Virus record (IMG/VR): IMGVR_UViG_3300022200_000111 | Span: 1 to 41,691 of that record | Direction: 5' to 3' (one strand) | Source of the DNA: a virus | DNA length: 41,691 bases | Shown: positions 10,850 through 22,677 of the stretch, in pieces | Position numbering within the stretch: position 1 is the first letter of the stretch | Layout of the letters: the number at the start of each line of letters is the position of its first letter | The notes under the pieces: generated by a model | Seen by the model: only the letters and a program-made list of their open reading frames with translations | The model's database searches: none | Told to the model about the DNA's origin: nothing | Made by a program: the position numbers and the translations under genes

Positions 10850-10936
10850 GGAAGGTTGGCAGAGTGGTAATGCATCGGACTGCTAATCCGTGGACCTTAA
10901 CAGGTTCCGAGGGTTCGATTCCCTCACCTTCCGCCA
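10850..10936 (+). tRNA. tRNA-Ser(GCU)
   Basis: Perfect 7-bp acceptor stem GGAAGGT/ACCTTCC, anticodon loop CTGCTAA, long variable arm as in class II tRNAs, T-loop TTCGATT and encoded CCA. Confidence 0.95.
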
Positions 10937-10944
10937 TACATCAT

Positions 10945-11021
10945 GGGCGTATAGCAAAGTGGTCTAAAGCCAGCTCCTCATAAGAGCCTGATCCTAGGTT
11001 CGAATCCTAGTGCGCCCACCA
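10945..11021 (+). tRNA. tRNA with CAU anticodon (Met or Ile2)
   Basis: Acceptor GGGCGTA/TGCGCCC, anticodon loop CTCATAA, T-loop TTCGAAT, CCA encoded. Whether it reads AUG, or AUA after lysidine modification, cannot be decided here. It lacks initiator features, unlike the CAU tRNA at 15223. Confidence 0.9.
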
Positions 11022-11050
11022 ATTTAGTATTTAATCGTGAGGAATTTATT

Positions 11051-11128
11051 ATGAACACGTATGCTTGGATTAATTTTGTAGCACTCAGGGTTCCGGAACT
11101 TGTCGCATTGGTTGTGGCTCACTGTTAG
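11051..11128 (+). CDS. Small ORF, 25 aa
   Basis: MNTYAWINFVALRVPELVAL begins seven bases after GTGAGGAA, a strong ribosome site. Short, mostly hydrophobic peptide; function unknown. Confidence 0.45.
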   Translation: MNTYAWINFVALRVPELVALVVAHC

Positions 11129-11152
11129 CCAACATGTGATAGTATTCTAGTA

Positions 11153-11183
11153 TTCTACATCATATAAGTATACCGATGTAGAA
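11153..11183 (+). promoter_or_regulatory. Late-type promoter inside a 9-bp inverted repeat
   Basis: TATAAGTA (11163-11170) lies between TTCTACATC (11153-11161) and GATGTAGAA (11175-11183), a perfect 9-bp repeat. The second arm runs into the GAAGGGG ribosome site of the PAS gene. Confidence 0.65.
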
Positions 11184-11196
11184 GGGGTATGACACA

Positions 11197-11724
11197 TTGC
11201 CAATCAGTAAAAATTTGAGTAAGCGAGAGCTTGATCAATTTGCAGACAAAATTTGGGACATTGGGTTCACCGGTAAAGCTCTGGTAAGCAGAGACGGTAC
11301 CATATTATCTGCCAATAAAATGTTTTGCACCATCACCGAATATACTGAATACGAATTACAGCAACGTAAATTCCAAGATTTCACCATCCCGAATGATGTC
11401 GAAGCCGATGAGGAAATGGCAAGAAGAGTTGCTGACGGACGTGCATACTCATACGATATGGTCAAGCACTATATCACCAAATCAAATGTTATAATTCAGG
11501 TGGCCTTGAGAGTATCGAGGCTTGAGAAGGAAGACGGAACATTCGATAGGTTTCTGAGTGAAATTACCCCACTGACTCATGTGGGTGATAAGACTGCCAA
11601 TATAATTAAGCCTAATCTAACAATGATGTGGTGGAGACGTAATTGGGCAATGATTGCAGGATGGACCGCAGCATTAGGAGCAGGCCTTGCAGCATTTCTT
11701 GATAAGTGGCCATTTGATATATAA
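11197..11724 (+). CDS. PAS-domain protein with C-terminal membrane anchor
   Basis: 175 residues from a TTG start, chosen because GAAGGGG is about 10 bases upstream. A PAS sensor fold covers roughly 20-130 (LVSRDGTILSANKMFCTITEY), and one hydrophobic segment follows at about 150-168. PAS domains bind small ligands or mediate dimerisation. There is no kinase, cyclase or HTH output domain, so it may act through binding at the membrane. Late-type promoter. The stop codon abuts the next tRNA. Confidence 0.75.
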   Translation: MPISKNLSKRELDQFADKIWDIGFTGKALVSRDGTILSANKMFCTITEYTEYELQQRKFQDFTIPNDVEADEEMARRVADGRAYSYDMVKHYITKSNVIIQVALRVSRLEKEDGTFDRFLSEITPLTHVGDKTANIIKPNLTMMWWRRNWAMIAGWTAALGAGLAAFLDKWPFDI

Positions 11725-11799
11725 GCCTCTGTAGCCTACTGGTAAGGCAACCGCTTCTAAACCGGATATATGTCAGTTCAATTCTGACCAGAGGCACCA
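11725..11799 (+). tRNA. tRNA with apparent CUA (amber) anticodon, or Arg(UCU)
   Basis: Acceptor GCCTCTG/CAGAGGC, D-stem GCCT/AGGC and T-arm GTCAG-TTCAATT-CTGAC are all canonical and CCA is encoded. Counting positions from the D-stem gives stem ACCGC/CCGGA (three good pairs; 27-43 A.A and 31-39 C.C mismatched) and loop TTCTAAA, hence anticodon CUA. Sliding the loop by one gives CTTCTAA (UCU, Arg) but then no stem forms. A separate well-formed Arg(UCU) tRNA exists at 27818. Confidence 0.75.
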
Positions 11800-11856
11800 T
11801 TTTCGTAAGCAGCTAAAGGAATACGTTATGACGTAGATATTTAATAAAATTCCCCC

Positions 11857-11913
11857 TTGACACAGACTCCAAGATTTGAAATACTTTATCCCATATCACA
11901 TGTAACTTTGGAG
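11857..11913 (+). promoter_or_regulatory. Early-type promoter with SD-masking repeat
   Basis: TTGACA (11857-11862), 17 bp, AATACT (11880-11885). CTCCAAG (11867-11873) pairs with CTTTGGAG (11906-11913) with one bulge; the second arm is the SD GGAG of the next gene. Confidence 0.6.
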
Positions 11914-11920
11914 AATTCCT

Positions 11921-12235
11921 ATGAATACACTTAACGAAAATATCGATAACTTCCTCAACTTGGACGTTACGTATAAACCCCTTTCATTCAGCAACAGTCA
12001 GATCACGTATCGGACTTTCCGTACTGATTGGAAGAGCCACTATAAAACTCTCAGCCAGTCAATTCGAGACACTCGTTCTTCGTTCAAGAATGAGCAACGC
12101 AATTCGGGTGGATTCCCAACTCGGGAAACTTCGGTTCAGCTTGAGATGAACAAGGCTCAAGCACGGGACATGCTGATTACCCTGCATGTTACCAAGGCCG
12201 AGAACAAGGCTCGACGGATGCATGGTGGCCTCTAA
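11921..12235 (+). CDS. Hypothetical protein
   Basis: 104 residues, basic and helical (TFRTDWKSHYKTLSQSIRDTR), not recognised. TTGGAG precedes the ATG. It overlaps the Pth2-like gene by 14 bases. Confidence 0.65.
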   Translation: MNTLNENIDNFLNLDVTYKPLSFSNSQITYRTFRTDWKSHYKTLSQSIRDTRSSFKNEQRNSGGFPTRETSVQLEMNKAQARDMLITLHVTKAENKARRMHGGL

Positions 12236-12608
12236 GGCTGATCAGTTAGTGTTGGGGATCGTCATTCGTAATGACATCCCTGACATGACACCCGGCAGGG
12301 CAATCGCTCAGGGTAGCCATGCTACTTCTGAATTTCATGCAGAGCTTAGTACCGAGGCATATCGCGAATGGGCCGATGATGGCTACTTCGGGACTGCCTT
12401 GGTGTTCTCTGGTAACGAACGTCAGCTTCTGGACATTATTGCATCATCTCATAAGACCGGCACAACTATGCACGGGATTACTAAAGATCGATCCTATAAG
12501 GTCGAGACTGACGGAGATATTCAATATGTCCCCATGATTACAGCACTATGGATTTTTGGTCCGAGGAAAGATGTTTCTCGGGTATGTAAAAAAGTTCAGT
12601 TATTCTGA
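12222..12608 (+). CDS. Peptidyl-tRNA hydrolase 2-like protein
   Basis: 128 residues. LVLGIVIRNDIPDMTPGRAIAQGSHA (about 9-34, family-like throughout) matches the start of the Pth2 fold, in which the Met-x-x-Gly-(Lys/Arg)-x-x-Ala-Gln segment lies at the active site. Pth2 enzymes release peptides from stalled peptidyl-tRNA. The usual Lys is Arg here and the C-terminal part is more divergent, so activity is not certain. It sits among tRNA genes and a tmRNA, which supports a translation role. Confidence 0.65.
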   Translation: MVASKADQLVLGIVIRNDIPDMTPGRAIAQGSHATSEFHAELSTEAYREWADDGYFGTALVFSGNERQLLDIIASSHKTGTTMHGITKDRSYKVETDGDIQYVPMITALWIFGPRKDVSRVCKKVQLF

Positions 12609-12618
12609 AAATAGTTGT

Positions 12619-12666
12619 TGACCTTTGTTTCGGTGTGTCCTATACCTTGATCATCGAAACAAAGGA
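12619..12666 (+). promoter_or_regulatory. Early-type promoter with 11-bp SD-masking repeat
   Basis: TTGACC (12619-12624), 17 bp, TATACC (12642-12647). CCTTTGTTTCG (12623-12633) is perfectly complementary to CGAAACAAAGG (12656-12666). The second arm contains the AAAGG of the AAAGGAG ribosome site; the first arm is in the promoter spacer and would be absent from the local transcript. Confidence 0.75.
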
Positions 12667-12674
12667 GCGACATC

Positions 12675-13295
12675 ATGGCTTACATCTCAACCGCAGCAGT
12701 CAAGGTTATCCGCGCCGATCTTAAGGCAGCGTTTCCTGATTGGAAGTTTTCTGTTCGCAAGGATGTCAACAGTCATTCTTCGATTACCGTTTCCATTCTG
12801 AAGTCCGATCTCGATTTCCAGTGGAGCAGCGGATATGCCAACACCGAACAGTATATGTCGATCAATCACTATCATCCTCAGGTCACCTTTTCGGGCAACA
12901 GCCTGACTCTGATCAAAGAGGTCATCGGTACCATCAACAAGGAAAACTGGGATCGTTCTGATATCCAGACTGATTACTTTGATGTTGGTTTCTATGTGAA
13001 TGTTGAGATGGGTCGGTATGGTCGTCCTTATATCAATGCTGGCGGCACTGTGCTGGATTACAATGCACCGGTCGAGACAATTAAAACCTTCACCGAAGTT
13101 GAAGAAGTCGTTGAGTCCAGCAAGGTCGAAACCCTTGACGAGATGTTCGATGATCAACCAGAATCGGTAGAGATGGTTAATGCCAAGTCAGCTCTTGATA
13201 TGTACCTTGAGCAGCACGGCACCATGATCAACCAGATCGCTGAACTTGAAAAGAACATCGAAGGTCTTGAGTGGCTGATCGCTAACGCAAAGTAG
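12675..13295 (+). CDS. LPD29-domain protein
   Basis: 206 residues. VIRADLKAAFPDWKFSVRKDVNSHSSITVS resembles the LPD29 domain found in large polyvalent proteins and alone in phages and plasmids (family recognised from the FP-x-x-KFSVR and SI-x-V pattern). The C-terminal 40 residues form a likely coiled coil. Function of the family is unknown. Strong SD AAAGGAG and its own promoter suggest high early expression. Confidence 0.65.
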   Translation: MAYISTAAVKVIRADLKAAFPDWKFSVRKDVNSHSSITVSILKSDLDFQWSSGYANTEQYMSINHYHPQVTFSGNSLTLIKEVIGTINKENWDRSDIQTDYFDVGFYVNVEMGRYGRPYINAGGTVLDYNAPVETIKTFTEVEEVVESSKVETLDEMFDDQPESVEMVNAKSALDMYLEQHGTMINQIAELEKNIEGLEWLIANAK

Positions 13296-13304
13296 GAGTT
13301 TGGT

Positions 13305-13805
13305 ATGTTCAAGATCAAACAAAAACCCAAGTTCAAAGAGCTTCCTGATGAAGTGATTGAAATTCGTGTTATGGACTATTATGGTTCTGGTGGCATCGAT
13401 CTTAACCGGATCGTTAAGGAGATGTTAGATAGGCTACATGGTCAGAATGCGTATCATGTCAACATCGCTGTACCAGACACGATTGATGTGTATAAGTTGC
13501 AGTTCGAAGCTACCACAGATGACTATGATTATGGCGCTCATCCTTCTCCCTACCTAAAAGTGACATATCAGGTTCGTCCGTCTGATCGTGTGTGTAACGA
13601 TCATCTGCTTGCATATGAAAAGAAGCTCAAAGAGTTTGAGAAATGGGAAGTGGATAATAAGGATAAGATCGCCGCTGAATTGGTGCGACGAGCTGAACAG
13701 GAGAAGCTTGATAAGATTCGTGCCAAGGATCGGACACAGGCAAATCTGAATGAGGAACGTGCCCGACTGCAAAAAAGACTTGCAGAGATCGATAAAAAAT
13801 TGTAG
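13305..13805 (+). CDS. Hypothetical protein with C-terminal coiled coil
   Basis: 166 residues, not recognised. The N-terminal two thirds is mixed alpha/beta (MDYYGSGGIDLNRIVKEML). Residues about 105-166 form a long charged coiled coil ending ARLQKRLAEIDKKL. It follows the LPD29 gene by 9 bases with TAGGAG in the gap, likely one operon. Confidence 0.7.
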   Translation: MFKIKQKPKFKELPDEVIEIRVMDYYGSGGIDLNRIVKEMLDRLHGQNAYHVNIAVPDTIDVYKLQFEATTDDYDYGAHPSPYLKVTYQVRPSDRVCNDHLLAYEKKLKEFEKWEVDNKDKIAAELVRRAEQEKLDKIRAKDRTQANLNEERARLQKRLAEIDKKL

Positions 13806-13841
13806 GGTACGTCATCAACATAACATTGAGGAACACACATC

Positions 13842-13925
13842 ATGATCACATTGACAGAAGATGAAGTTCGTACTGCCCTCGAACAGGGTGGGTTTTCCGA
13901 GATGAAAGGCGTGATTCCTTTTTAG
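13842..13925 (+). CDS. Small ORF, 27 aa
   Basis: MITLTEDEVRTALEQGGFSE... preceded by TTGAGGAACACACATC. Its TAG stop overlaps the first base of a tRNA-like element. Function unknown. Confidence 0.45.
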   Translation: MITLTEDEVRTALEQGGFSEMKGVIPF

Positions 13926-13994
13926 GGCCAGTAGCTCAACGCCAAGAGAGCATCGGAATGCCGAAGGTTGCCCCTGCAAGCGGGGTCTGGTCCA
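13925..13994 (+). tRNA. tRNA-like element with shrunken anticodon arm
   Basis: Acceptor GGGCCAG/CTGGTCC, D-stem GCTC/GAGC and T-stem GCCCC/GGGGT are intact. The anticodon arm is reduced to TCGG-AATG-CCGA with a 4-base loop, the D-loop lacks GG, and the T-loop is TGCAAGC. No CCA is encoded (ATCA follows). Probably a degenerate tRNA or a tRNA mimic, not a decoding tRNA. Confidence 0.5.
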
Positions 13995-14016
13995 TCAAAT
14001 TAAATGCACATGACGC

Positions 14017-14044
14017 TTGACAATTACTGATCGTCGTGTATAAG
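14017..14044 (+). promoter_or_regulatory. Early-type promoter before GIY-YIG gene
   Basis: TTGACA (14017-14022), 16 bp, TATAAG (14039-14044). The -10 also reads as the late octamer TATAAGTA (14039-14046). Confidence 0.5.
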
Positions 14045-14084
14045 TAAATGTTCAGGTTCTTTGACAATTGAATATGATTTTTAG

Positions 14085-14156
14085 CGAGATTGGTGGTACA
14101 TCTGGTATAAGTAACTTGTATGAGTTACTATACTGTGTATCGTACCACCAATCTCG
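14085..14156 (+). promoter_or_regulatory. Nested hairpin and late octamer enclosing the GIY-YIG start codon
   Basis: CGAGATTGGTGGTAC (14085-14099) is perfectly complementary to codons 8-13 of the gene (14142-14156). Inside, GTATaAGTAACT (14105-14116) pairs with AGTTACTATAC (14123-14133), leaving the ATG (14120) in a 6-base loop. The late octamer TATAAGTA (14106-14113) is in the inner 5' arm. Confidence 0.7.
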
Positions 14157-14578
14157 TCAATCAAAAACAGTACATCGGTCACCATAAGACCGATGATCTT
14201 GATGATGCATATCTCGGTTCAGGATCAGTCCTATCTCATGCCATTAAAAAGTATGGTAGAGAAGCGTTCCAGAAAGAGACATTATTTGTCTACGATAATC
14301 ATGATGACATGATCAAGAAAGAAACAGAATTAGTAAACGACATTTATTGTGCCCGCCAAGACACGTACAACCTCATGGAGGGCGGTAAGGGTGGCTTCGG
14401 TCACATCAATGCCCAAGGCTTGAATAACATAACTAGAAAGCTCTCGAACGAAGTTATCGAAATCCGAAGAGTTGTGTTGATCGCCTGTGGTGGTAATAAC
14501 AGAGAAACTGCTAGATATCTAGGTATTGATGAGAAGGCAGTGAGAAAATTTAGAAAAAAGTATTTGACACCAACATAA
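14120..14578 (+). CDS. GIY-YIG homing endonuclease
   Basis: 152 residues. The GIY-YIG module spans about 3-85: YYTVYRTTNLVNQKQYIGHH supplies the first (YTV) and second (YIG) elements, LGSG follows, and E69 lies in KKETELV. A basic HTH-like tail (NNRETARYLGIDEKAVRKFR) probably binds DNA. Such phage enzymes cut intron- or endonuclease-less alleles and spread by repair. There is no usual SD, and the start is folded into a hairpin. It resembles the gene at 26191 in the catalytic half only. Confidence 0.88.
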   Translation: MSYYTVYRTTNLVNQKQYIGHHKTDDLDDAYLGSGSVLSHAIKKYGREAFQKETLFVYDNHDDMIKKETELVNDIYCARQDTYNLMEGGKGGFGHINAQGLNNITRKLSNEVIEIRRVVLIACGGNNRETARYLGIDEKAVRKFRKKYLTPT

Positions 14579-14592
14579 CGGTGTGGTATAAA
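14564..14592 (+). promoter_or_regulatory. Strong early-type promoter for the RNA cluster
   Basis: TTGACA (14564-14569), 17 bp, TATAAA (14587-14592), at the end of the GIY-YIG gene and directed into about 1.1 kb of tRNAs and structured RNA. Confidence 0.8.
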
Positions 14593-14598
14593 GAGATC

Positions 14599-14771
14599 AT
14601 GAAATTGCATAGAATGTCGTCGATCACTTGCTTAGAGATGCATATCGAAGCGGGTGGAGAACGAACAAAGCGGGATAAACGTCAGGCTTTCACCCGCCAG
14701 CCCTCATGTTAGTGGTCATCCCCGCGCGAGATGACTAGACATAGAGACTGGGAGCTGCCAATTGCATAATT
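14599..14771 (+). ncRNA. Structured untranslated leader of tRNA cluster
   Basis: No ORF. GCGGGTG and CACCCGC form a 7-bp stem around 14651-14698, TGGTCATC/GATGACTA another around 14712-14738, and CCAATT-GCAT-AATTGG sits directly against tRNA-Asp. May be only a processed tRNA leader, or a small RNA. Confidence 0.4.
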
Positions 14772-14847
14772 GGACCTGTAGCTCAGTTGGGAGAGCGCTT
14801 CGTTGTCAGCGAGGAGGTAGTGGGATCGAAACCCATCAGGTTCGCCA
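14772..14847 (+). tRNA. tRNA-Asp(GUC)
   Basis: Acceptor GGACCTG/CAGGTTC, anticodon loop TTGTCAG, T-loop ATCGAAA (unusual A54), CCA encoded. Confidence 0.92.
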
Positions 14848-15222
14848 TAATTAATCGCCCGACTAAAATATCGGAACAAGGTAAAAAAGATTCTTGCTTC
14901 CCACCACAACGGGACAATGCAGTGAGCAGACTGCACCGAGGCGATTAGCATAATTGGTTACGCATGATATGCGCATTAAATTGGTGATCGATATCGCCAG
15001 CCAAACTAGCTGAGACGGGTTTTTGTAGCAACCCATTTAGTTGCGTGGAGATCACCCAACCTAAATTCGTCTCGGAAGAATAAACACGCATGACTGATCT
15101 ACCCAAGAGTAAAAGAGGGATGAGGGTAGAAGATATGAATATATGGTCATTGATCAAACCGCTATGCAACCCGAGCTAGGCAAATTGGCATAATGGCCCC
15201 ATGTGTGTTTATACCATTTTAA
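14848..15222 (+). ncRNA. Structured non-coding region between tRNA-Asp and tRNA-Met
   Basis: No gene in 375 bases. A 13-bp helix joins 15080-15092 and 15200-15212 (one G.U). CTGAGACG (15010-15017) pairs with CGTCTCGG (15068-15075), and GGTGATC (14983-14989) with GATCACC (15050-15056); these two helices cross, as in a pseudoknot. GCAAC/GTTGC (15028-15044) makes a 5-bp, 7-base-loop hairpin. GGCGAT...ATCGCC (14940-14997) looks tRNA-like but has no T-arm. Unknown RNA. Confidence 0.5.
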
Positions 15223-15301
15223 TGCGGGATAGTAGCAGTCCGGTCAGCTCGTCAGGCTCATAACTTGAAGGTCGGGGGTTCGAATCCCTCTCCCGCAACC
15301 A
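15223..15301 (+). tRNA. tRNA-Met(CAU), initiator-like
   Basis: Resembles bacterial initiator tRNA: CAGTCCGGTCAGCTCGTC D-region, CTCATAA loop, GAAGGTCG, and end CCCGCAACCA with A72. Position 1 is T, so 1-72 is a U-A pair instead of the usual mismatch, and the anticodon stem has only part of the GGG/CCC pairs. One or two extra bases lie in the D-arm. Confidence 0.85.
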
Positions 15302-15347
15302 AATACTATACTGTCCGTACTTTTTTCTTCAATTTTAGGTATGGATA

Positions 15348-15384
15348 GTGCTGGTGGAATGTTCTCCATGTTCGCGACCAGCAC
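15348..15384 (+). other. 8-bp hairpin between tRNAs
   Basis: GTGCTGGT (15348-15355) pairs perfectly with ACCAGCAC (15377-15384); no T-tract follows. Probably a processing or small-RNA element in the spacer 15302-15393. Confidence 0.4.
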
Positions 15385-15393
15385 CTAATTTAT

Positions 15394-15469
15394 AGTTCCA
15401 TAGCTTAGTTGGGAAAGCACTCGTCTGATAAACGAGAGAGCAGTGGTTCGATCCCACTTGGAACTACCA
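15394..15469 (+). tRNA. tRNA-Ile(GAU)
   Basis: Acceptor AGTTCCA/TGGAACT, anticodon stem CTCGT/ACGAG, loop CTGATAA, T-loop TTCGATC, CCA encoded. Confidence 0.94.
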
Positions 15470-15472
15470 TAA

Positions 15473-15567
15473 TTACTGGTGCGGCAGAAGGTGGTAGCAG
15501 AAAGCCTCCAACACGTTGTCCCACATGTCGAAGATTGTTTGAGGCAAGTCTTCCTTGGCATCAGTAA
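15473..15567 (+). ncRNA. Structured spacer RNA closed by 10-bp helix
   Basis: TTACTGGTGC (15473-15482) pairs with GCATCAGTAA (15558-15567), one G.U. Inside, GAAGATTG and CAAGTCTTC form a second stem with one bulge. It fills the gap between tRNA-Ile and tRNA-Leu. No ORF. Confidence 0.45.
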
Positions 15568-15577
15568 GCATTTAAAT

Positions 15578-15662
15578 GCCTGCTTGGCGTAATTGGTAGG
15601 CGCGACAGACTTAAAATCTGTTGACTTCGGTCGTGCCGGTTCGACCCCGGCAGTGGGCACCA
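15578..15662 (+). tRNA. tRNA-Leu(UAA)
   Basis: Class II tRNA with acceptor GCCTGCT/AGTGGGC, CAGA-CTTAAAA-TCTG anticodon arm, variable arm TTGACTTCGGTCGT and CCA encoded. Confidence 0.94.
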
Positions 15663-15682
15663 TCATTTGAAAGAGATATGTT

Positions 15683-16096
15683 ATGAAAAATTTGCCAAAA
15701 ATTGATGTGCGTAAATTAGCACCACGAACGATTTTATATCGGTTCGAGACTAAGCAGCATTATTTTCACGACAAGATACATAAGGTGATTGACCACGAGG
15801 ATTGGTTCCGCTATGAGAAGGGTCTGAAAACAGTCGAGTTTACTGAGTATGAATATATCGGTAAGATAGAACCAAAGTTTATCGGTGCGGCCACACATCT
15901 GGCAGCTCTCAAAGAGGTCAAGCTTATCAATGATCCGGAGAGTGTTGTCTATCTCTTTCGGAATACCGTGACTAATGATTTTGATGAGTTGAACATCCTT
16001 AATGATTTGACAGCGGTGTTTACCGAAGCTGAAGCAATTTGTGTCAAAGATGAATACGATTTGTATTGGTACAAGAAAAGAAACGGTATCGAATAG
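15683..16096 (+). CDS. Hypothetical protein upstream of tmRNA
   Basis: 137 residues, not recognised: MKNLPKIDVRKLAPRTILYR start, no membrane segment. AGAGATATGTT precedes the ATG. Its leader (ATCATTTGAA, then a purine run, then ATAT-TTATG) is nearly the same as that of the gene after the tmRNA. The stop lies at the start of the tmRNA acceptor piece. Confidence 0.7.
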   Translation: MKNLPKIDVRKLAPRTILYRFETKQHYFHDKIHKVIDHEDWFRYEKGLKTVEFTEYEYIGKIEPKFIGAATHLAALKEVKLINDPESVVYLFRNTVTNDFDELNILNDLTAVFTEAEAICVKDEYDLYWYKKRNGIE

Positions 16097-16099
16097 AAT

Positions 16100-16183
16100 T
16101 GCGGTGAAAGCCGTAGTATGCACTCGTTTGAAGACGAGCAAAAGTATTTCTGGACGCGGGGGCAGTACCCGCCGTCTCCACCA
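16100..16183 (+). ncRNA. ssrA: tmRNA acceptor piece (permuted ssrA, 3' part)
   Basis: Ends GCGGG-GGCAGTA-CCCGC (T-arm, 16156-16172), CGTCTCC (16173-16179), A, CCA. CGTCTCC pairs over 7 bp with GGGGACG of the coding piece at 16320-16326. Upstream hairpin CTCGT-TTGAAG-ACGAG (16122-16138). The gene order acceptor, then coding, is that of the circularly permuted two-piece tmRNA of alphaproteobacteria. The 5' boundary is approximate. Confidence 0.85.
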
Positions 16184-16319
16184 TGAACATATAGCTGAAG
16201 TAGGTACTCGGGCTGCATAATGGGCAGCAGAGATTAACTGAGGCGTATCACCTATGATACGAGGGTTTTTAGGATAACGTGATGGCCTAGTTTGCGTTAT
16301 CAGTCTATATGTTCTTGCT
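16184..16319 (+). other. tmRNA intervening segment
   Basis: Lies between the mature CCA end and the mature 5' end and should be removed. GAACATATAG (16185-16194) and CTATATGTTC (16305-16314) are perfectly complementary, extending the acceptor stem in the precursor. Inside are hairpins CGTATCA-CCTA-TGATACG and GATAACG/CGTTATC. Confidence 0.75.
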
Positions 16320-16505
16320 GGGGACGAAATAGGATCGACAGGATACGAGTAGGTAAATCTGAGAGTGCCGGGTGAAGCCCGTCATAGGTTCAAAAATAGT
16401 AAATGCAAACACACCTGCATACAATGAGGGCTTTGCTCTAGCAGCATAAGTCTTCGGGGTTCCCGTGGTTCCTTGCAACAGAATACCACGGACTAATCAT
16501 TTGAA
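16320..16505 (+). ncRNA. ssrA: tmRNA coding piece (permuted ssrA, 5' part)
   Basis: Begins GGGGACGAAATAGGATCGAC, the typical tmRNA 5' end with its short D-like loop, then a GCCGGG/GCCCG pseudoknot-like stretch, the tag frame, and a terminal hairpin CCGTGGT/ACCACGG (16465-16494). With the acceptor piece it rescues ribosomes stalled on broken mRNAs and tags the products for proteolysis. The 3' end is not defined. Confidence 0.85.
16405..16449 (+). other. tmRNA proteolysis-tag reading frame
   Basis: GCA resume codon followed by codons for ANTPAYNEGFALAA and TAA. The C-terminal ALAA is the ClpXP-type degron expected for a tmRNA tag. Confidence 0.88.
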
Positions 16506-16515
16506 GGGATATATT

Positions 16516-17022
16516 ATGTTCGGATTATTCGAAAATAAAAAAGAAATTGAGCATATTGCATCGGTAGACCGAGCCAACAAAATCGTTGAGGCTTTGGAGG
16601 ATTATTGTTGTTATGATAATTGCTACTTACCTATCCTGCATGAACATTCGATCTGGCCCGATATTGATACTGGTGTGAAGTGGTATTATATTAGAAACAT
16701 TAGCGGTGAAGTCGTTGAGATGTTTGAGACTCGGAAAGAATGTGATGATTTCGTCAGAGGTCCAGATGAAGCTGCCAAAGTTGAATATGCCGAGAAACTT
16801 CTTATGTGGAAAAATACCGTAATAGGCCGAGTGGAAATATTCCGCGACACAGCTTCTGGATATTCGACAGAAGAATTGGCGCAAGTCGTCCGCTTGAAAA
16901 ACAGCATACGGTCGTCACATGCTGGCACTATTACTCGTATTGCAAATTTTATTGAAGACAGTTCAATGCAAGACGAGCTTGATGTTATTGACGCACTATA
17001 CAATGAAAGATGTCTTGACTAA
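16516..17022 (+). CDS. Hypothetical protein downstream of tmRNA
   Basis: 168 residues beginning MFGLFENKKEIEHIASVDRA, helical and acidic, not recognised. The start has GAAGGG eight bases upstream; the longer frame from 16465 would cross the tmRNA 3' hairpin. Ends a few bases before tRNA-Pro. Confidence 0.7.
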   Translation: MFGLFENKKEIEHIASVDRANKIVEALEDYCCYDNCYLPILHEHSIWPDIDTGVKWYYIRNISGEVVEMFETRKECDDFVRGPDEAAKVEYAEKLLMWKNTVIGRVEIFRDTASGYSTEELAQVVRLKNSIRSSHAGTITRIANFIEDSSMQDELDVIDALYNERCLD

Positions 17023-17030
17023 TAGTTCAA

Positions 17031-17105
17031 CAGGGTGTAGCTCAGAGGCAGAGTGCTTGGTTTGGAACCAAGAAGCCGGGATTTCAAAATTCCCCATCCT
17101 GACCA
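17031..17105 (+). tRNA. tRNA-Pro(UGG)
   Basis: Acceptor CAGGGTG/CATCCTG, anticodon arm CTTGG-TTTGGAA-CCAAG, CCA encoded. Confidence 0.94.
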
Positions 17106-17122
17106 ATAACCTTATGGACGAC

Positions 17123-17260
17123 AGAGACAGGGGCGCGTCCCGGATGTCTCTTGGTAAGCGATCATATCTAGCCCTATACTCTCCGGTTCGCGACTGGTAT
17201 TAGGAGTGGTATGTTTCCGGCCCGCGACGACAGTGGGTGCCGTAAGGATTATACTTTCAA
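17123..17260 (+). ncRNA. Structured spacer RNA after tRNA-Pro
   Basis: AGAGACA/TGTCTCT (17123-17151) encloses a GC-rich GGG/CCC stem; CCGGT-TCGCG-ACTGG forms a second hairpin near 17182-17196. No ORF in 17106-17278. Function unknown. Confidence 0.4.
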
Positions 17261-17278
17261 CCGATAAAGGATTTTATT

Positions 17279-17497
17279 ATGGAATATTTGATTGGTGCAT
17301 ACCTGCTGTATTTCGCATACAGCGCATTTCTCACATCCTACTCGATTGTTGCAGATGGTCTTCAATATTGGGCTGTTCGCGGCACTAGAAAGCATCGCTC
17401 CATTTCATGGTGGAAGCTTGCTTATGCCTTGACAATAGGGCTGTTCGTGACCACACCAATTCATTGGAACTGGTCGGCCTATAAGGAAATGACATGA
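17279..17497 (+). CDS. Small membrane protein
   Basis: 72 residues with two hydrophobic segments (about 3-26 and 45-60) separated by a basic loop (RGTRKHRS). AAGGA precedes the ATG. Overlaps the next gene by four bases. Function unknown; holin-like topology is possible but not specific. Confidence 0.65.
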   Translation: MEYLIGAYLLYFAYSAFLTSYSIVADGLQYWAVRGTRKHRSISWWKLAYALTIGLFVTTPIHWNWSAYKEMT

Positions 17498-17691
17498 CTC
17501 ATAATGTTATCGTTACTGACAATCCTAGTGGTGGTGTTGATCTCGAACTTCGATGCATTAATGATGAGAAGTATGTCGATGCTAAACCAACAGGTATGGT
17601 CTGTGCCAAATGGGACGAAGGTACCTGTAAGTGTCGCATCGACGAACGAGCGGCCCGCCAAGCTCGCATAGATGCAAGGAAGTCCCCATGA
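17494..17691 (+). CDS. Small hypothetical protein with CxC motif
   Basis: 65 residues; C33 and the CKC pair near residues 45-47 could bind metal or be structural, and the C-terminus is Arg-rich (DERAARQARIDARKSP). Coupled to both neighbours by ATGA overlaps. Confidence 0.55.
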   Translation: MTHNVIVTDNPSGGVDLELRCINDEKYVDAKPTGMVCAKWDEGTCKCRIDERAARQARIDARKSP

Positions 17692-17996
17692 CCTTAGACG
17701 AACTTGTTGCCAAGATGCGACCATTCCACAATCACATTTGTATCGCCCATGATATGAAGCTGTGTCGTTTGGTAGGTATTGGTGAAGATGATATGGATTA
17801 TTATTATATCGTCCAGACTCTTGACACACCGATGCATAAGCATCAATGGTACAGTGCTGTTGGAGCTTGTGAGTCGATAAAGGGTTCATACGCTCGTTAC
17901 GATATTGTTGAGAGTATGTTCACCATTAACGGCCATGAGGCAACTCAAAACTTTTTGGTGATTCCACATGAGAAGAAATTAGCCTCCAAAACATAA
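17688..17996 (+). CDS. Hypothetical protein overlapping tRNA-Thr
   Basis: 102 residues, MTLDELVAKMRPFHNH start at the ATGA overlap, His- and Tyr-rich centre (DDMDYYYIVQTL), not recognised. The last 15 bases, including the stop, are also the first 15 bases of tRNA-Thr. Confidence 0.65.
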   Translation: MTLDELVAKMRPFHNHICIAHDMKLCRLVGIGEDDMDYYYIVQTLDTPMHKHQWYSAVGACESIKGSYARYDIVESMFTINGHEATQNFLVIPHEKKLASKT

Positions 17997-18056
17997 GTGG
18001 CGATGTACCGGTTTTGTAATCCGGAGAACTTGGTTCGATTCCGAGTGGGGGCACCA
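17982..18056 (+). tRNA. tRNA-Thr(UGU)
   Basis: Acceptor GCCTCCA/TGGGGGC, D-stem ACAT/ATGT, anticodon loop TTTGTAA, T-loop TTCGATT, CCA encoded. Position 8 is A instead of T. Its 5' end lies inside a coding sequence. Confidence 0.88.
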
Positions 18057-18064
18057 TTTAATAA

Positions 18065-18142
18065 GGGCAGGACTCTGGTAGGGAATCCGGCACGACCGGT
18101 GAACAATCGCAAACCCCGTGGGTTCAATTCCCATCCTGTCCA
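18065..18142 (+). tRNA. tRNA-like element, anticodon unclear
   Basis: Acceptor GGGCAGG/CCTGTCC and T-arm GTGGG-TTCAATT-CCCAT are canonical. The middle does not fold as a normal D plus anticodon arm: CTGG/CCGG could be a D-stem, or CCG-GCACGAC-CGG an anticodon arm reading ACG but with C33. CCA is not encoded (ACTA). Confidence 0.5.
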
Positions 18143-18168
18143 CTATTTTAACACGGAGACATTATATC

Positions 18169-18612
18169 ATGAGTAAATTCCCAACTAACGAAGAGCGACT
18201 AGCCCTTAGCGGCGCTCAGGAAATTCTGGATTTCGCAACTGAACAATTTGCATCTATGACCAAATTCAGTAACGATGGGATCGTATGCTCATACAACATT
18301 CCCAAGAAGTTTCTTGGAATTACTGTTGGGTGTGAGAATCAATGTATTGTTGGTCGCATGATTACACCATCAGAGCTGACGGCAATGAGTCATTATGTTC
18401 GATCTAGTACGTTTCCTATTAATAGGATTCCGGCCAGTGAACTACCGGTAAGGCTAAAAGATCATAGAGATTTGCTTAAATCGCTGCAACTGGTCCACGA
18501 CACCCATGATCATTGGGATGATCATGGTTTCATTGGATGGGATCAGCTAGCCAAGGTTGCTCACGGATATCACTTGTCAGACACAAAAATTCGTGCTAAA
18601 GGTGGTTTCTAA
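18169..18612 (+). CDS. Hypothetical protein
   Basis: 147 residues, not recognised. It has a His/Asp-rich segment VHDTHDHWDDHGFIGWDQ (about 112-129) that could bind metal. CGGAG precedes ATG 18169; the earlier ATG at 18118 lies inside the tRNA-like element. Ends eight bases before tRNA-His. Confidence 0.65.
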   Translation: MSKFPTNEERLALSGAQEILDFATEQFASMTKFSNDGIVCSYNIPKKFLGITVGCENQCIVGRMITPSELTAMSHYVRSSTFPINRIPASELPVRLKDHRDLLKSLQLVHDTHDHWDDHGFIGWDQLAKVAHGYHLSDTKIRAKGGF

Positions 18613-18620
18613 TTAATTAA

Positions 18621-18695
18621 GCCGGGTCAAGCATAAAGGTGATGCGCTTGATTGTGAATCAAGAGAAGGTGGCTCGATACCACGGCCCGGTACCA
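18621..18695 (+). tRNA. tRNA-His(GUG), alphaproteobacterial type
   Basis: CTTGA-TTGTGAA-TCAAG anticodon arm; acceptor GCCGGGT/GCCCGGT with G1.U72, discriminator A73, CCA encoded. The base before G1 is A, so the near-universal G-1 is not encoded. This combination is known from Caulobacter and relatives. Confidence 0.92.
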
Positions 18696-18715
18696 ACAAC
18701 AAAGGAGTATGACCA

Positions 18716-19186
18716 ATGACTGATCGAAACTTTGAAGCTGCCCGAGATGCTATTGCTGCATCAAGCGAAGAGTCTTCGATCTACATCGGATGCGACTCTC
18801 AACGATATAAGAGCAAGGAAGGGAAGCGTGTTGCCAAGTATGCGACCGTTATCATCCTGCATAATGACTCAAAGCATGGTGGACAAATCTTTCGAGAATT
18901 TGAAACCCATGCTGATTTCGGAAAGAAGACTGAATCAATTCATGTCCGACTGATGAAGGAAGTTGAGTTGAGTGTTAAGGCCGTCGAAGCTATCATTGAT
19001 GTTATTGGTGATCGTCATGTGGAAATTCATCTTGACATCAACCCCAACGTAATGTATGCTTCCAGTTCAGTAGTTAATGCTGCTATTGGTTACGTACGAG
19101 GGACAACTGGTTACGAGCCAATGGTCAAGCCGGATGCATGGGCTGCCACTCACTGTGGCGATCATGTCGTCCGAAACATGAATTGA
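18716..19186 (+). CDS. DUF458/YkuK-like putative RNase H-fold nuclease
   Basis: 156 residues. SSIYIGCDSQRYK (about 20-32) with D27 resembles the first strand of the DUF458 RNase H-like family. VEIHLDINPN (D106) and KPDAWAATHCGDHV supply further acidic and His residues. The family is predicted to cut nucleic acid but is poorly studied. AAAGGAG ribosome site. A role in host or tRNA processing is conjecture. Confidence 0.7.
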   Translation: MTDRNFEAARDAIAASSEESSIYIGCDSQRYKSKEGKRVAKYATVIILHNDSKHGGQIFREFETHADFGKKTESIHVRLMKEVELSVKAVEAIIDVIGDRHVEIHLDINPNVMYASSSVVNAAIGYVRGTTGYEPMVKPDAWAATHCGDHVVRNMN

Positions 19187-19193
19187 GGTTATT

Positions 19194-19448
19194 ATGAATT
19201 ACTCTAGCTATCCTAAACGGACGTTTTGTGACGTTCTCGCAGAAATTCGTAAATGTCACAAAACGTCCAACTATAGTTACATGCCGGGACTGGTAGAAGA
19301 ACTTCAAACTATTGGTAATCGGATGGAAGCCCATCTTGATCAGAAGAGAGAATATTTTGAGTTGCGGGATGAATGCCGGAAACTTCGGAAGAAGCTTAAA
19401 GGCCTGAAATCCAAACTCTCGGATTCAACAGATGATAAGGATACGTGA
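19194..19448 (+). CDS. Small coiled-coil phage protein
   Basis: 84 residues; RTFCDVLAEIRKCHKTSNYSY followed by a charged coiled coil (RDECRKLRKKLKGLKSKL). The N-terminal pattern is common in T4-like phage hypothetical proteins. GAGG site; follows the nuclease-like gene by seven bases. Confidence 0.65.
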   Translation: MNYSSYPKRTFCDVLAEIRKCHKTSNYSYMPGLVEELQTIGNRMEAHLDQKREYFELRDECRKLRKKLKGLKSKLSDSTDDKDT

Positions 19449-19449
19449 T

Positions 19450-19782
19450 ATGCCAATGCGACTTTTGAGAGAAGATTCTGAAGGCATCTATATCCAGTGT
19501 GAGGGTAATAAATACCGTCCCTGTGATAATGTGTCAGGCCTGTCCCATGCTTGCAATACCGGTGATCCGGGTCTGGTTGCGGGAGAGAAGGTTAATTCCA
19601 ATCCTGCATGGGGTGGTGGTTCTCAGTGCCTCAAGCTTATAACATCGGAGGGTAATTTTTATTGGGCCTCTGAGTATAGGCTTGAACAGCAACGAGCTTC
19701 TGCCGCAATGGCCCGAGTTCCTAGTCCGGAACTAGATGCCCTGTTCGGTCGAATTCGAACCGTGAAGGTAGTCGGTAGCTGA
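19450..19782 (+). CDS. Hypothetical protein
   Basis: 110 residues with six Cys/Gly-rich turns (CNTGDPG, PAWGGGSQC), not recognised. The start at 19450 follows AAGGATACGTGAT and lies just after the upstream TGA; an in-frame ATG at 19432 overlaps the previous gene. Confidence 0.6.
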   Translation: MPMRLLREDSEGIYIQCEGNKYRPCDNVSGLSHACNTGDPGLVAGEKVNSNPAWGGGSQCLKLITSEGNFYWASEYRLEQQRASAAMARVPSPELDALFGRIRTVKVVGS

Positions 19783-19836
19783 TATCCGCCAAGAGTGGAT
19801 CGATTAAGTATAAAGGACATATGTAGGATAATGTTA

Positions 19837-20232
19837 ATGGACGTCGAAATCGCTAGATTAATCATCGAAGAACATGGGGTTCAACTGAGAGCAATCAAAT
19901 TGCATCAGGTAGGGTCTTCATGGTCTTGCGATCCTCCACCAAATCCTGTGACAGATGTGGACTTTCTCATGTTGGTTCCTGATAGGTCTGACGTAACGGG
20001 CACAAAACTACACGATCTAGGATATGTCTTAGATGACGGTAATGTTCATTATGATCCAAGTGAGGGTGAGTTTAATTCTTGGAGACGAGGAAAACTTAAT
20101 CTTATCCTAACCGATTGTGAAGAATTTTATGAAAGTTTCATGTTAGCATCAAGGGTGGCCAAGAAATTGAACCTGCTTAACAAGAAAGATCGAATTGATC
20201 TTTTTCAAGCAATCCTTTATGGTAACAGTTAA
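19837..20232 (+). CDS. Nucleotidyltransferase-fold-like protein
   Basis: 131 residues. VGSSWSCDPPPNPVTDVDFLM (about 24-44) has the GS...DxD arrangement of the polymerase-beta nucleotidyltransferase fold, with acidic residues D39 and D41. It may be a minimal transferase, possibly an antitoxin-like or tRNA-modifying one. TAGGA is nine bases upstream of ATG 19837; ATG 19831 and GTG 19795 are alternatives. Followed by tRNA-Cys. Confidence 0.55.
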   Translation: MDVEIARLIIEEHGVQLRAIKLHQVGSSWSCDPPPNPVTDVDFLMLVPDRSDVTGTKLHDLGYVLDDGNVHYDPSEGEFNSWRRGKLNLILTDCEEFYESFMLASRVAKKLNLLNKKDRIDLFQAILYGNS

Positions 20233-20248
20233 ATAATTTGATGACCAA

Positions 20249-20322
20249 GAGCCGTTGGTAAAATGGTAATACGTGGCCCTGCAAAGGCTGAGTTGTTGGT
20301 TCAATTCCGACACGGTTCTCCA
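20249..20322 (+). tRNA. tRNA-Cys(GCA)
   Basis: Acceptor GAGCCGT/ACGGTTC, loop CTGCAAA, discriminator T73 as expected for Cys, CCA encoded. Confidence 0.93.
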
Positions 20323-20333
20323 TCAAATAAGTC

Positions 20334-20364
20334 TTGACATCATAAAAACGAAAGAGTATGATGT
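20334..20364 (+). promoter_or_regulatory. Strong early-type promoter for orphan RNA
   Basis: TTGACA (20334-20339), 17 bp, TATGAT (20357-20362). ACATCATA (20337-20344) and TATGATGT (20357-20364) form a perfect inverted repeat over the promoter elements, possibly an operator. Confidence 0.75.
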
Positions 20365-20368
20365 TGAG

Positions 20369-20740
20369 GTAGATCACAAATATCGGGGGCGGGAAGGTTT
20401 CTCGCATGTCGATATTACATTGAGTATAGTGCTAGGGGTTACCTTAACAAGGTGTAGTTTTTGAGAAATTACGGTCCCGAACATTATACTTAATACTAAA
20501 ATTGTGTACGGATACATACCGTAGTGATCACGGGCAGAAGTTAAGCATTTGAATCAGCGCGAATTCTCGATAGTTGACAGAAGTTTAACCGCGAACAAGT
20601 AAGTGTTGAGGCTTCACGCACCTCCCGTACACATAACGCATACGCATACGCAAGCAAGCAAATAGTGAGCAGCCGATAGAGGCAGTAGGTTATATCATCG
20701 AGATGATATTTTTGGGTGCAAATCCCTCCCTTGCGAATTT
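20369..20740 (+). ncRNA. Orphan structured non-coding RNA region
   Basis: No gene in about 450 bases behind a good promoter. TGTGTACGG (20503-20511) pairs with CCGTACACA (20625-20633), enclosing TACGG-ATACATA-CCGTA and CGCG...CGCG stems. Earlier, ACCTT-AAC-AAGGT; later, ATATCAT-CGAG-ATGATAT (20692-20709) and a T-loop-like GGG-TGCAAAT-CCC with CGCAAG/CTTGCG ends. Could be one or several RNAs. Confidence 0.5.
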
Positions 20741-20774
20741 ATAGTATCTAAGAAATAGTACTAAACTAAAACAT

Positions 20775-20814
20775 ACGGGTTGGGGGAGGAACACCCGTGT
20801 CACAAGTTCCTCCC
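20775..20814 (+). promoter_or_regulatory. H-type pseudoknot in leader of wHTH gene
   Basis: ACGGGT (20775-20780) pairs with ACCCGT (20793-20798) and GGGAGGAAC (20784-20792) with GTTCCTCCC (20806-20814). The order and loops (3, 0 and 7 bases) fit a classic H-type pseudoknot. It ends 14 bases before the GGAG site. Confidence 0.6.
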
Positions 20815-20839
20815 ATATAATTTAATAATGGAGTTTATT

Positions 20840-21040
20840 ATGGCACCACAAAACGCCCAAGTCCTAGACATCATGGAGAAGTTCGGTTCGATCACTCCCC
20901 GAGTTGCAGTAGGATATGGCATTTATCGTCTGGCCGCACGTATTCACAACCTTCGGGATGCTGGGTATCAGATTGCGACGGATCGTCTTGAGGCGTCCAG
21001 TGGTGGACGCTATGCCAAATACTCTCTGTTGACCTCGTAA
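20840..21040 (+). CDS. Winged-HTH phage protein
   Basis: 66 residues. QNAQVLDIMEKFGSITPRVA followed by YGIYRLAARIHNLRDAGYQI and a beta-wing (SSGGRYAKYSL) is the common phage helix-turn-helix domain of this type, probably DNA-binding. GGAG eight bases before ATG 20840 decides the start. The leader pseudoknot suggests control of translation. Confidence 0.75.
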   Translation: MAPQNAQVLDIMEKFGSITPRVAVGYGIYRLAARIHNLRDAGYQIATDRLEASSGGRYAKYSLLTS

Positions 21041-21183
21041 TGATAGAAAAGTTTATATTTGGAGCGATGATTACGGTAGCGACTATCTCCGGTATGTTTA
21101 TCGTCTATCTATGGATGACTATACCGGCAGATGCCTTCAACAGCTATAATGAAAGTAGGTATGAACAATGCCCATCAAGGTGA
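21040..21183 (+). CDS. Small single-pass membrane protein
   Basis: 47 residues with one hydrophobic segment (about 5-29). The start overlaps the previous stop (TAATG) and its end overlaps the next gene by 16 bases. Unknown function. Confidence 0.5.
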   Translation: MIEKFIFGAMITVATISGMFIVYLWMTIPADAFNSYNESRYEQCPSR

Positions 21184-21578
21184 GAGATAAGTGGATTACA
21201 ATCAAAGATTGTCGGGATGCTCCCGATGAATATTTTATCTTTGGGGACAATCTTGAGCGATGGGGTAAAGGTGGTCAGGCAATCATTCGTGACGAACCTA
21301 ATGCCATAGGTATCCCAACCAAGAAGTCTCCGAGTGAATATTTCACTGACGAAGATAGTGTCTATGATAATATCGTACCGGACCTTAAGAAAATTGTTCT
21401 ATTACTCGATGCTGGTAAGACAGTATGGTTCCCCAAGGATGGTATCGGTACCGGACTGGCCAAATTGAAAGAAACAGCACCTCAGCTATATGACAGTCTG
21501 TATTTTCTTATCGATTTGTGTTTCCATAATCATGGTGATGTCGAGGAATGGCAGCCAGTCTATGAAGTTTTAAAATAA
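21168..21578 (+). CDS. DUF7831-like hypothetical phage protein
   Basis: 136 residues; EYFIFGDNLERWGKGGQAII and NAIGIPTKKSPSEYF match a widespread phage protein family with FGDNL-x-R-x-G-x-GGQA. It recalls macro-domain-like nucleotide-binding loops, but the role is unknown. Start lies within the membrane protein gene, with AGTAGG upstream. Confidence 0.65.
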   Translation: MPIKVRDKWITIKDCRDAPDEYFIFGDNLERWGKGGQAIIRDEPNAIGIPTKKSPSEYFTDEDSVYDNIVPDLKKIVLLLDAGKTVWFPKDGIGTGLAKLKETAPQLYDSLYFLIDLCFHNHGDVEEWQPVYEVLK

Positions 21579-21583
21579 GGATG

Positions 21584-21591
21584 TATAAGTA
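21584..21591 (+). promoter_or_regulatory. Late-type octamer before tRNA-Gly
   Basis: TATAAGTA only eight bases before the tRNA 5' end, so the transcript could start at about the mature 5' end. Confidence 0.45.
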
Positions 21592-21598
21592 AAGACAT

Positions 21599-21669
21599 GC
21601 AGGTGTAGCTTAATGGTAGAGCAACTTCCTTCCAAGTAGAAGACGAGGGTTCGATTCCCTTCACCCGCT
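21599..21669 (+). tRNA. tRNA-Gly(UCC)
   Basis: Acceptor GCAGGTG/CACCCGC (one A.C), loop CTTCCAA, T-arm GAGGG-TTCGATT-CCCTT. Anticodon stem has three pairs. CCA is not encoded. Confidence 0.78.
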
Positions 21670-21674
21670 CATAG

Positions 21675-21748
21675 AGAGCATTAGAAGTATAGGTAGTTCC
21701 AATGGGTAAACCTACGGATACTTCTAATGCTCTACACAATTTATAAGG
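21675..21748 (+). repeat. Partial copy of homing-endonuclease leader hairpin
   Basis: AGAGCATTAGAAGTAT (21675-21690) and its perfect 16-bp complement (21718-21733) enclose a loop almost the same as at 26155-26181. It continues with ACACAATTTATAAG, the second to sixth codons of the GIY-YIG gene at 26191, then diverges. Stem bases differ from the other copy with compensating changes. Confidence 0.75.
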
Positions 21749-21820
21749 TTCCTACACTGCCACGATGCGAAGCCAGTAGGATTAAATTAATCGGATGCGT
21801 TCAGCCTTATAACATAACAT

Positions 21821-21858
21821 GCCCTCGTGGTGAAATTGTAAAAGTCGCTTCCGTATAA
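21821..21858 (+). pseudogene. Possible tRNA 5'-half remnant
   Basis: GCCCTCGTGGTGAAATTGTA resembles the acceptor and D-arm of a class II (Leu-like) tRNA. No matching CGAGGGC 3' half follows; the HNH gene begins instead. Confidence 0.35.
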
Positions 21859-21889
21859 GTACCTATGTAACCCAATTACGGAGCATAGG
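21849..21889 (+). promoter_or_regulatory. Late octamer and two alternative SD-masking hairpins before HNH gene
   Basis: TATAAGTA (21854-21861). TTCCGTA (21849-21855) can pair with TACGGAG (21877-21883), or CCTATG (21862-21867) with CATAGG (21884-21889). Each would hide a possible SD (GGAG or TAGGA) before ATG 21891. Confidence 0.6.
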
Positions 21890-21890
21890 A

Positions 21891-22379
21891 ATGACACACA
21901 GGAAAGAAGTTCTTGAAGAGGCTGCGAAAATATCCAAATCATTCTCTGATATAGCAAGGCATTTGGGTAGAAAGCCGGTTGGTGGTACTATCAGCAATAT
22001 CAGCAGAGCATGTAAAAGACTTGGAATTGATACCAGCCATTTTATGGGACAGGGCCATAACAAAGGGAAGGTTGCCCAGAATAAGAAAAGACCTGACCAA
22101 ATTTTGGTACTCGACGATTCTAAACTACCTCCAAGGTCAAAGCGAGTGCAGTTAAAATACGCATTGCTTGAAATTGGCATTGAATATAAGTGTGATGTGT
22201 GCGAACTAACCGAATGGAATGGTGAAGAACTCACATTAGACATTGATCACATCAATGGTAAGTATTGGGATAGTAGGCGAGAGAATTTAAGATTCATTTG
22301 TCCTAACTGTCACAGACAGACTCCGACATGGGGGCGTGGTGGAATGGCAGACACATCAGCTTTAGGTGCTGACGCTTAA
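21891..22379 (+). CDS. HNH homing endonuclease
   Basis: 162 residues. The N-terminal part (EEAAKISKSFSDIARHLG) is HTH-like. The C-terminal HNH nuclease has CDVC (about 103-106), LDIDHINGKYWDSRRENLRFICPNCH with the DH pair and a second Cys pair, typical of I-HmuI/T4-like free-standing enzymes. The final ~16 residues (GRGGMADTSALGADA) are read from the first 50 bases of tRNA-Leu, so the gene has come to lie hard against, and into, the tRNA. Late-type leader as for the two GIY-YIG genes. Confidence 0.88.
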   Translation: MTHRKEVLEEAAKISKSFSDIARHLGRKPVGGTISNISRACKRLGIDTSHFMGQGHNKGKVAQNKKRPDQILVLDDSKLPPRSKRVQLKYALLEIGIEYKCDVCELTEWNGEELTLDIDHINGKYWDSRRENLRFICPNCHRQTPTWGRGGMADTSALGADA

Positions 22380-22413
22380 CAGCATGGGAGTTCGAATCTC
22401 CCCGCCCCTACCA
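22330..22413 (+). tRNA. tRNA-Leu(UAG)
   Basis: Acceptor GGGGGCG/CGCCCCT, anticodon arm TCAGC-TTTAGGT-GCTGA, short class II variable arm, T-loop TTCGAAT, CCA encoded. Overlapped by the end of the HNH gene. Confidence 0.92.
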
Positions 22414-22549
22414 AAATTTATGAACTATGATGATAATTTTTTTGATCTGGATGAACGTATAAAATACGATCTAGGTAGTGACTAGATAGAGGTGGTGGCG
22501 AACCTTGATAGCGAAGGACCATCACTGGTTCAAATGTTGCTGGTTCTCG

Positions 22550-22605
22550 GGGGAGTGAATGGGAGGTGAAGGTGATCGCACCGAATCCGATGAAAGACAC
22601 TCCCC
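22550..22605 (+). ncRNA. Hairpin closed by GGGGAGTG/CACTCCCC
   Basis: A perfect 8-bp stem (22550-22557 with 22598-22605) encloses GGTG-ATCG-CACC. Part of a gene-free stretch 22414-22619 in which I see no convincing tRNA or ORF. Confidence 0.45.
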
Positions 22606-22619
22606 ACTGAAACATACAC

Positions 22620-22648
22620 TTGACAGTTTATACTCGGTAGCGTATATG
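22620..22648 (+). promoter_or_regulatory. Strong early-type promoter
   Basis: TTGACA (22620-22625), 17 bp, TATATG (22643-22648), 30 bases before a 51-codon gene. No clear start-masking repeat found here. Confidence 0.78.
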
Positions 22649-22677
22649 TAGATCATAGACATTGTAAGGAGATTGTT

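Follow-up and report, generated by a model that had tools for sequence, protein, structure and literature searches.

The stretch of viral DNA analysed here, 41,691 nucleotides long and called the window below, carries a real and intact gene for a circularly permuted two-piece tmRNA in the middle of a phage tRNA array. A preliminary description, made from the letters, had named the gene rightly; phage two-piece tmRNAs as such were already known. The gene looks like a functional phage ssrA of the alphaproteobacterial permuted type that would be transcribed with tRNAs, processed, charged and used together with the SmpB protein of the host. We give this reading a probability of about 0.8.

Identity and anatomy of the gene

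The region was read directly and the window was scanned with ARAGORN and with all Rfam families. The search with the Rfam alpha_tmRNA model (RF01849), which the preliminary description had proposed as a check, gave a match at 16060-16494 (+) with 103.1 bits and an E-value of 3e-27 over model positions 1-355 of 355, the gathering cut-off being 50 bits. The tmRNA_permuted model (RF04321, cut-off 47 bits) matched 16121-16449 (+) with 104.3 bits over positions 1-213 of 213. Both models carry no pseudoknots, and in the coding piece only the 3' hairpin was looked at. ARAGORN placed a permuted tmRNA with the tag ANTPAYNEGFALAA at 16089-16540; in 200 shuffled versions of the window with the dinucleotides preserved, the program called no tmRNA. 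The gene consists of the following parts.

16060..16494, + strand: permuted tmRNA gene (ssrA), whole covariance-model match (RF01849, RF04321, ARAGORN)
16098..16117, + strand: 8-bp hairpin with a GAAA loop just 5' of P2 (fold)
16120..16183, + strand: acceptor piece, true 5' end approximate (sequence, pairing counts)
16120-16125, + strand: P2 5' strand GCACTC in the acceptor piece (sequence)
16144-16152, + strand: P2a strand in the acceptor piece
16156-16172, + strand: T-arm with the loop GGCAGTA
16173-16179, + strand: acceptor strand CGTCTCC, followed by the discriminator A at 16180 and CCA at 16181-16183
16184..16319, + strand: intervening spacer of 136 nt, predicted to be removed in the mature RNA (sequence)
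16320..16500, + strand: coding (mRNA-like) piece, 3' end approximate (sequence, Rfam, pairing counts)
16320-16326, + strand: acceptor strand GGGGACG at the start of the coding piece
16339-16346, + strand: P2a partner strand in the coding piece
16363-16368, + strand: P2 partner strand in the coding piece
16405..16449, + strand: tag reading frame with TAA stop (ARAGORN), resume codon GCA at 16405-16407
16463-16491, + strand: 3' hairpin enclosing the alpha-type CTTGCAACAGAA motif

The order of acceptor piece, spacer and coding piece, with a 7-bp acceptor stem between the two pieces, is of the alphaproteobacterial type, as had been proposed. The claimed pairing of the acceptor piece ending CGTCTCC-A-CCA with the GGGGACG start of the coding piece formed in 7 of 7 positions, as six Watson-Crick pairs and the G3-U70 pair, and the tag frame was open and reads ANTPAYNEGFALAA followed by the stop codon. 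Every pair formed in the acceptor stem, in the T-stem and at six positions of P2; the inner P2 segment of the covariance model was unpaired in the window. Among the 17 members of the phage clade to which the gene belongs (see below), the acceptor stem and the T-stem were paired in all 17, and at three of the six P2 pairs both sides had changed in 14-16 members with the pairing kept. P2a was supported across the clade at its base and at two inner pairs, not throughout, and the columns of the 3' hairpin aligned poorly. Both helices therefore rest mainly on the sequence of the window itself.

The alanine signal G3-U70 (G16322-U16177) was a G-U pair in 112 of 112 usable rows and is accompanied by ACCA at 16180-16183; the alanyl-tRNA synthetase of the host would charge the phage tmRNA through this pair. 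The T-loop GGCAGTA, which lacks TTC and had first been regarded as an oddity, is the ordinary alpha-type form and was ruled out as an anomaly. The Rfam alpha consensus carries the same form, and GGCAGTA or GGCGGTA was found in 96 of 114 rows of the collected genes, GGCAGTA being the commonest (67 rows, against 29 for GGCGGTA) in a count biased towards it because the bacterial set was fetched with the GGCAGTA pattern.

With 136 nt, the spacer is longer than the viral median of 77 nt and the median of 29 nt in the bacterial sample, and lies within the range of the cultured phages (88-142 nt). Its ends pair over 10 bp (16185-16194 with 16305-16314), with a fold of -43.6 kcal/mol. For maturation, host RNase P would cut at 16320, and 3' processing at the CCA (16183) and trimming by endonucleases would remove the spacer, leaving two RNAs held together by the acceptor stem, P2a and P2. 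The spacer also contains a terminator-like stem at 16244-16261. An ORF upstream of the tmRNA (15683-16183 region) ends in TAG, and its readthrough frame stays open for 29 codons over the acceptor piece, with a TGA right after the CCA; this open frame is probably due to chance.

Tag peptide and partner protein

The tag ANTPAYNEGFALAA-TAA has kept the hydrophobic C-terminus and the stop, and the last five codons (GCT CTA GCA GCA TAA) are identical between the window and its nearest relative, the contig L071. The start of the tag differs. ANDN was found in 36 of 37 deduplicated bacterial genes, whereas the window has ANTP, with TP at tag positions 3-4 in place of the DN of nearly all sampled bacterial tags. 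The tag of L071, ANDNAYIGDYALAA, starts with ANDNAY and has the same length, so the change in the window is a substitution. ANDN was also missing from 25 of 70 viral-contig tags, and a broader bacterial sample was more varied and included some bacteria without it. A search of IMG/VR for the same tag gave no match. The C-terminal ALAA of the tag is the part read by ClpXP, and adaptors such as SspB of E. coli and SspB-alpha of Caulobacter bind another portion. Judged by position, the changed part would be the portion bound by adaptors, with the C-terminus read by ClpXP kept.

It is conceivable, though we consider it rather unlikely, that the phage tmRNA acts by replacing the host tag. A tag with TP for DN would then be handled differently by the adaptors or proteases of the host, and ribosomes would be freed without a rapid loss of phage proteins, or the products would be sent to another protease. 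The ANTP start, the equally long ANDNAY tag of L071 and the viral tags that also lack ANDN argue for a replacement. However, the ALAA end is kept, a single divergent tag may be drift, and ANDN is missing from some bacteria of the broader sample as well.

A search for the partner protein SmpB (PF01668) gave no match in the window and none in 11 genomes of cultured phages, although 8 of these phages carry a permuted tmRNA; the same search found SmpB in 10 of 14 control genomes. The window is a 41.7-kb fragment, and smpB could sit elsewhere in the phage genome. Otherwise SmpB would be supplied by the host and would deliver the tmRNA, in the course of infection, to ribosomes that have stalled on broken mRNAs; there the tag (A)ANTPAYNEGFALAA would be added and the ribosome freed. 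Use of the tmRNA in infection would show that ribosome stalling limits phage growth.

A decoy or inhibitor that titrates host SmpB or competes with the host tmRNA, as reported for mycobacteriophage DS6A, is improbable. The DS6A gene encodes the tRNA-like domain only, and expression of an RNA of this type in E. coli leads to inhibition of tmRNA (PMC11915505, PMC4131195). In the window, however, the tag frame, the stop codon, the resume region, P2 and the 3' hairpin of the coding piece are all kept, none of which a decoy needs.

Lineage and upstream region

A tree built from 143 genes put the window gene into a phage-only set of 17 that includes Methylophilales phage Melnitz (96/90), next to L071 (99/93), and the 63 bacterial genes formed one separate group (100/96). 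The branch of the window is long (0.85), the bootstrap values were still unsettled and a T-arm pattern had served to select the bacterial sample, so the nearest neighbours are less sure than the separation from bacteria. The long branch also makes some loss of constraint possible. No near bacterial relative from which a host could be inferred was found for the window tmRNA, and the same 5' core had no match in the GTDB genomes. At least 120 IMG/VR contigs matched the alpha core, and 8 of 11 cultured phages, including Stenotrophomonas phage DLP_6, had a permuted tmRNA above the cut-off, which the records of several of them do not annotate. The Melnitz paper describes a phage two-piece tmRNA and counts 133 unique phage tmRNAs, of which 53 are predicted to be two-piece and 50 of these belong to marine or aquatic phages (PMC9004378); the tmRNA database paper lists 79 bacteriophage tmRNA sequences (PMC11915505). 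The phage-encoded, circularly permuted two-piece tmRNA of the preliminary description is borne out by the covariance models, by ARAGORN, by compensatory changes at paired positions and by the tree. That it is a recently captured host gene, or the remnant of an integration at the host ssrA, without a selected phage function is very improbable: the tmRNA gene is a frequent integration site of genomic islands (PMC11915505), but the copy in the window is complete and surrounded by the genes of a tRNA array, and in the tree it falls within a phage-only clade, with its best identity (66%) to another phage contig and with no bacterial gene as its neighbour.

Upstream of the phage genes a common element was observed. 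The exact sequence TATAAATA occurred in 61 of the 106 distinct regions upstream of phage tmRNAs, and nearly always stood 33-43 nt ahead of the T-arm GGAC. It was absent from this site in 57 bacterial genes, even with one mismatch allowed, and from the tmRNA 5' site in 289 alphaproteobacterial genomes and in 50 further sampled loci that included AT-rich ones; its absence from these genomes and loci ruled out a conserved bacterial RNA element. By its letters, TATAAATA corresponds to the T4 late promoter box, and TTGACA-N17-TGnTATAAA to a strong sigma70 promoter. A perfect TTGACA stood 16-18 nt upstream of 88 of 135 tmRNA TATAAATA sites, which include contigs fetched by the motif itself, but of only 6 of 253 other TATAAATA sites on the same contigs, and TGn preceded the box in 64% and 6% of them, respectively. 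Given this enrichment of TTGACA and TGn, a plain T4 late promoter was dropped. Since a T4 late box is joined with a sigma70 consensus, we read the site as a composite promoter, from which transcription would start no more than about 2 nt away from the P2 strand in the acceptor piece. The form TTGACA-N16-18-TGnTATAAATA was found 30-45 nt 5' of the T-arm in L071, L087, L098, L117, L205 and about 130 other viral loci. The TATAAATA promoter is scattered over the tree, and the supported branches demand at least five changes. Among the phage genes without TATAAATA, 12 of 58 had a sigma70-like promoter with at least 10 of 12 matches at the same place (0.9% in shuffles). The authors of the Melnitz paper placed an early promoter at that site with a sigma70 predictor (PMC9004378); a discussion of the composite form was not found in the literature searched.

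The window tmRNA has a bacterial-type 5' hairpin where most phage relatives have the promoter. Of 99 bacterial genes, 77 had a hairpin of at least 5 bp here (23% in shuffled sequences), compared with 11 of 136 phage genes with TATAAATA. No sigma70-like promoter was found directly upstream of the window tmRNA (best 6 of 12), and the two TATAAATA boxes of the window, at 32406 and 35711, each lie about 41 nt before an ORF. The nearest strong candidate is located before tRNA-Asp.

14564..14592, + strand: nearest strong sigma70-like promoter upstream, TTGACA-N17-TATAAA (consensus match 11 of 12)

The transcript that extends into the tmRNA may begin at this promoter. In the simplest reading, which is also the most likely course, an upstream promoter would drive the tmRNA jointly with the tRNA genes around it, and the transcript would then be processed.

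The tRNA array and known systems

The contig is a fragment of a T4-type phage that encodes UvsX, a DnaB-like helicase, an RNA ligase and a flavin-dependent thymidylate synthase. The closest relative of its UvsX was the UvsX of phage C48C1 (57%); identity to the one of Caulobacter phage Cr30 was 49%. The tRNA genes are interleaved with small ORFs; ARAGORN found 24 of them, and Rfam added a tRNA-His with a GTG anticodon at 18622-18691.

10850..31598, + strand: array of 25 tRNA genes that serve all 20 amino acids and include a CUA-anticodon tRNA, with the tmRNA inside (ARAGORN, Rfam)
11725-11799, + strand: CUA-anticodon tRNA, one of the 25

The CUA-anticodon tRNA lacks G3-U70, had no close match among the cultured phages and is possibly an amber suppressor. 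A recoding of TAG linked to it was unsupported, with 18 of 65 chosen ORFs ending in TAG. At 12675-13805, two ORFs of 206 and 166 amino acids share a frame, with only a few codons between the TAG that ends the first and the start of the second; they might be a suppressible fusion. Two related SegE-like GIY-YIG endonuclease ORFs lie within the array (14120-14578 and 26191-26805) and are possibly mobile elements. Outside the array, the adjacent ORFs 6676-7338 and 7367-8779 have 32% identity over 213 residues and are a tandem duplication. Near-identical contigs from other metagenomes (L002, L003) covered the flanking genes, not the tmRNA.

As part of a translation kit with the tRNA set for 20 amino acids, the tmRNA would help to sustain phage translation during the decay of host RNA. 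The preliminary description had suggested that a phage tmRNA may guard late translation once host mRNAs are cut, or may retag products; for this copy either role is a hypothesis. A phage that brings the full set of tRNAs and a tmRNA has almost every RNA adaptor used in translation and in ribosome rescue. Against a functional ssrA stand the tag that departs from the bacterial ANDN start, the missing promoter directly upstream, unlike most relatives, the unpaired inner P2 and the branch of 0.85. Beyond the known phage tmRNAs, the analysis adds the altered tag, the full set of tRNAs and the regular promoter of the phage family, which the copy in the window does not share. Through the promoter common to the relatives and the altered tag, the question why a phage keeps a tmRNA becomes two, namely when it is made and what becomes of the tagged proteins. 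A wider proposal, which we put forward tentatively and hold for somewhat less probable than its opposite, is that the two-piece tmRNAs of phages make up separate lineages with their own regulation. Most could be made both early and late from the composite sigma70 and T4-late promoter and would need no 5' processing; the window would be a variant with a bacterial hairpin, made with the tRNA array, whose ANTP tag may uncouple rescue from adaptor-driven degradation.

Compared with the Caulobacter-type tmRNA of Rfam RF01849, the window has the same piece order, T-loop, G3-U70 acceptor stem, P2, 5' hairpin and 3' CAACAGAA hairpin, but its score of 103 bits is lower than the 143-313 bits in the 86 bacterial genomes over the cut-off. 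The Ruegeria and Rhodobacter phages DSS3P8, DSS3_MAL1 and RcXuper (L204, L208 and L209) also have an alpha-type permuted tmRNA near tRNA genes and, like the window, no TATAAATA at the acceptor piece; their spacers are 98-109 nt long. Unlike the window, they lie on another branch of the tree and have the tags ANINNAPMEMAIAA, ANTNAAPMEMAIAA and ANENFAPMEMRLAA. In DSS3P8 (L204:2347-2780) and DSS3_MAL1 (L208:1268-1731), a GOLLD RNA was observed directly 5' of the permuted tmRNA. Another close system is Melnitz (MZ577097, PMC9004378), a T4-like phage of the same clade (96/90) with an alpha-type permuted tmRNA, no SmpB and a similarly long spacer (142 nt compared with 136 nt). However, Melnitz has the tag ANDNYVPVDYALAA and a glutamine riboswitch behind the tmRNA, whereas the window has ANTP and a surrounding tRNA array, and at the 5' end of the acceptor piece Melnitz has the promoter TTGACA-N17-TATAAATA in the place where the window has a hairpin.
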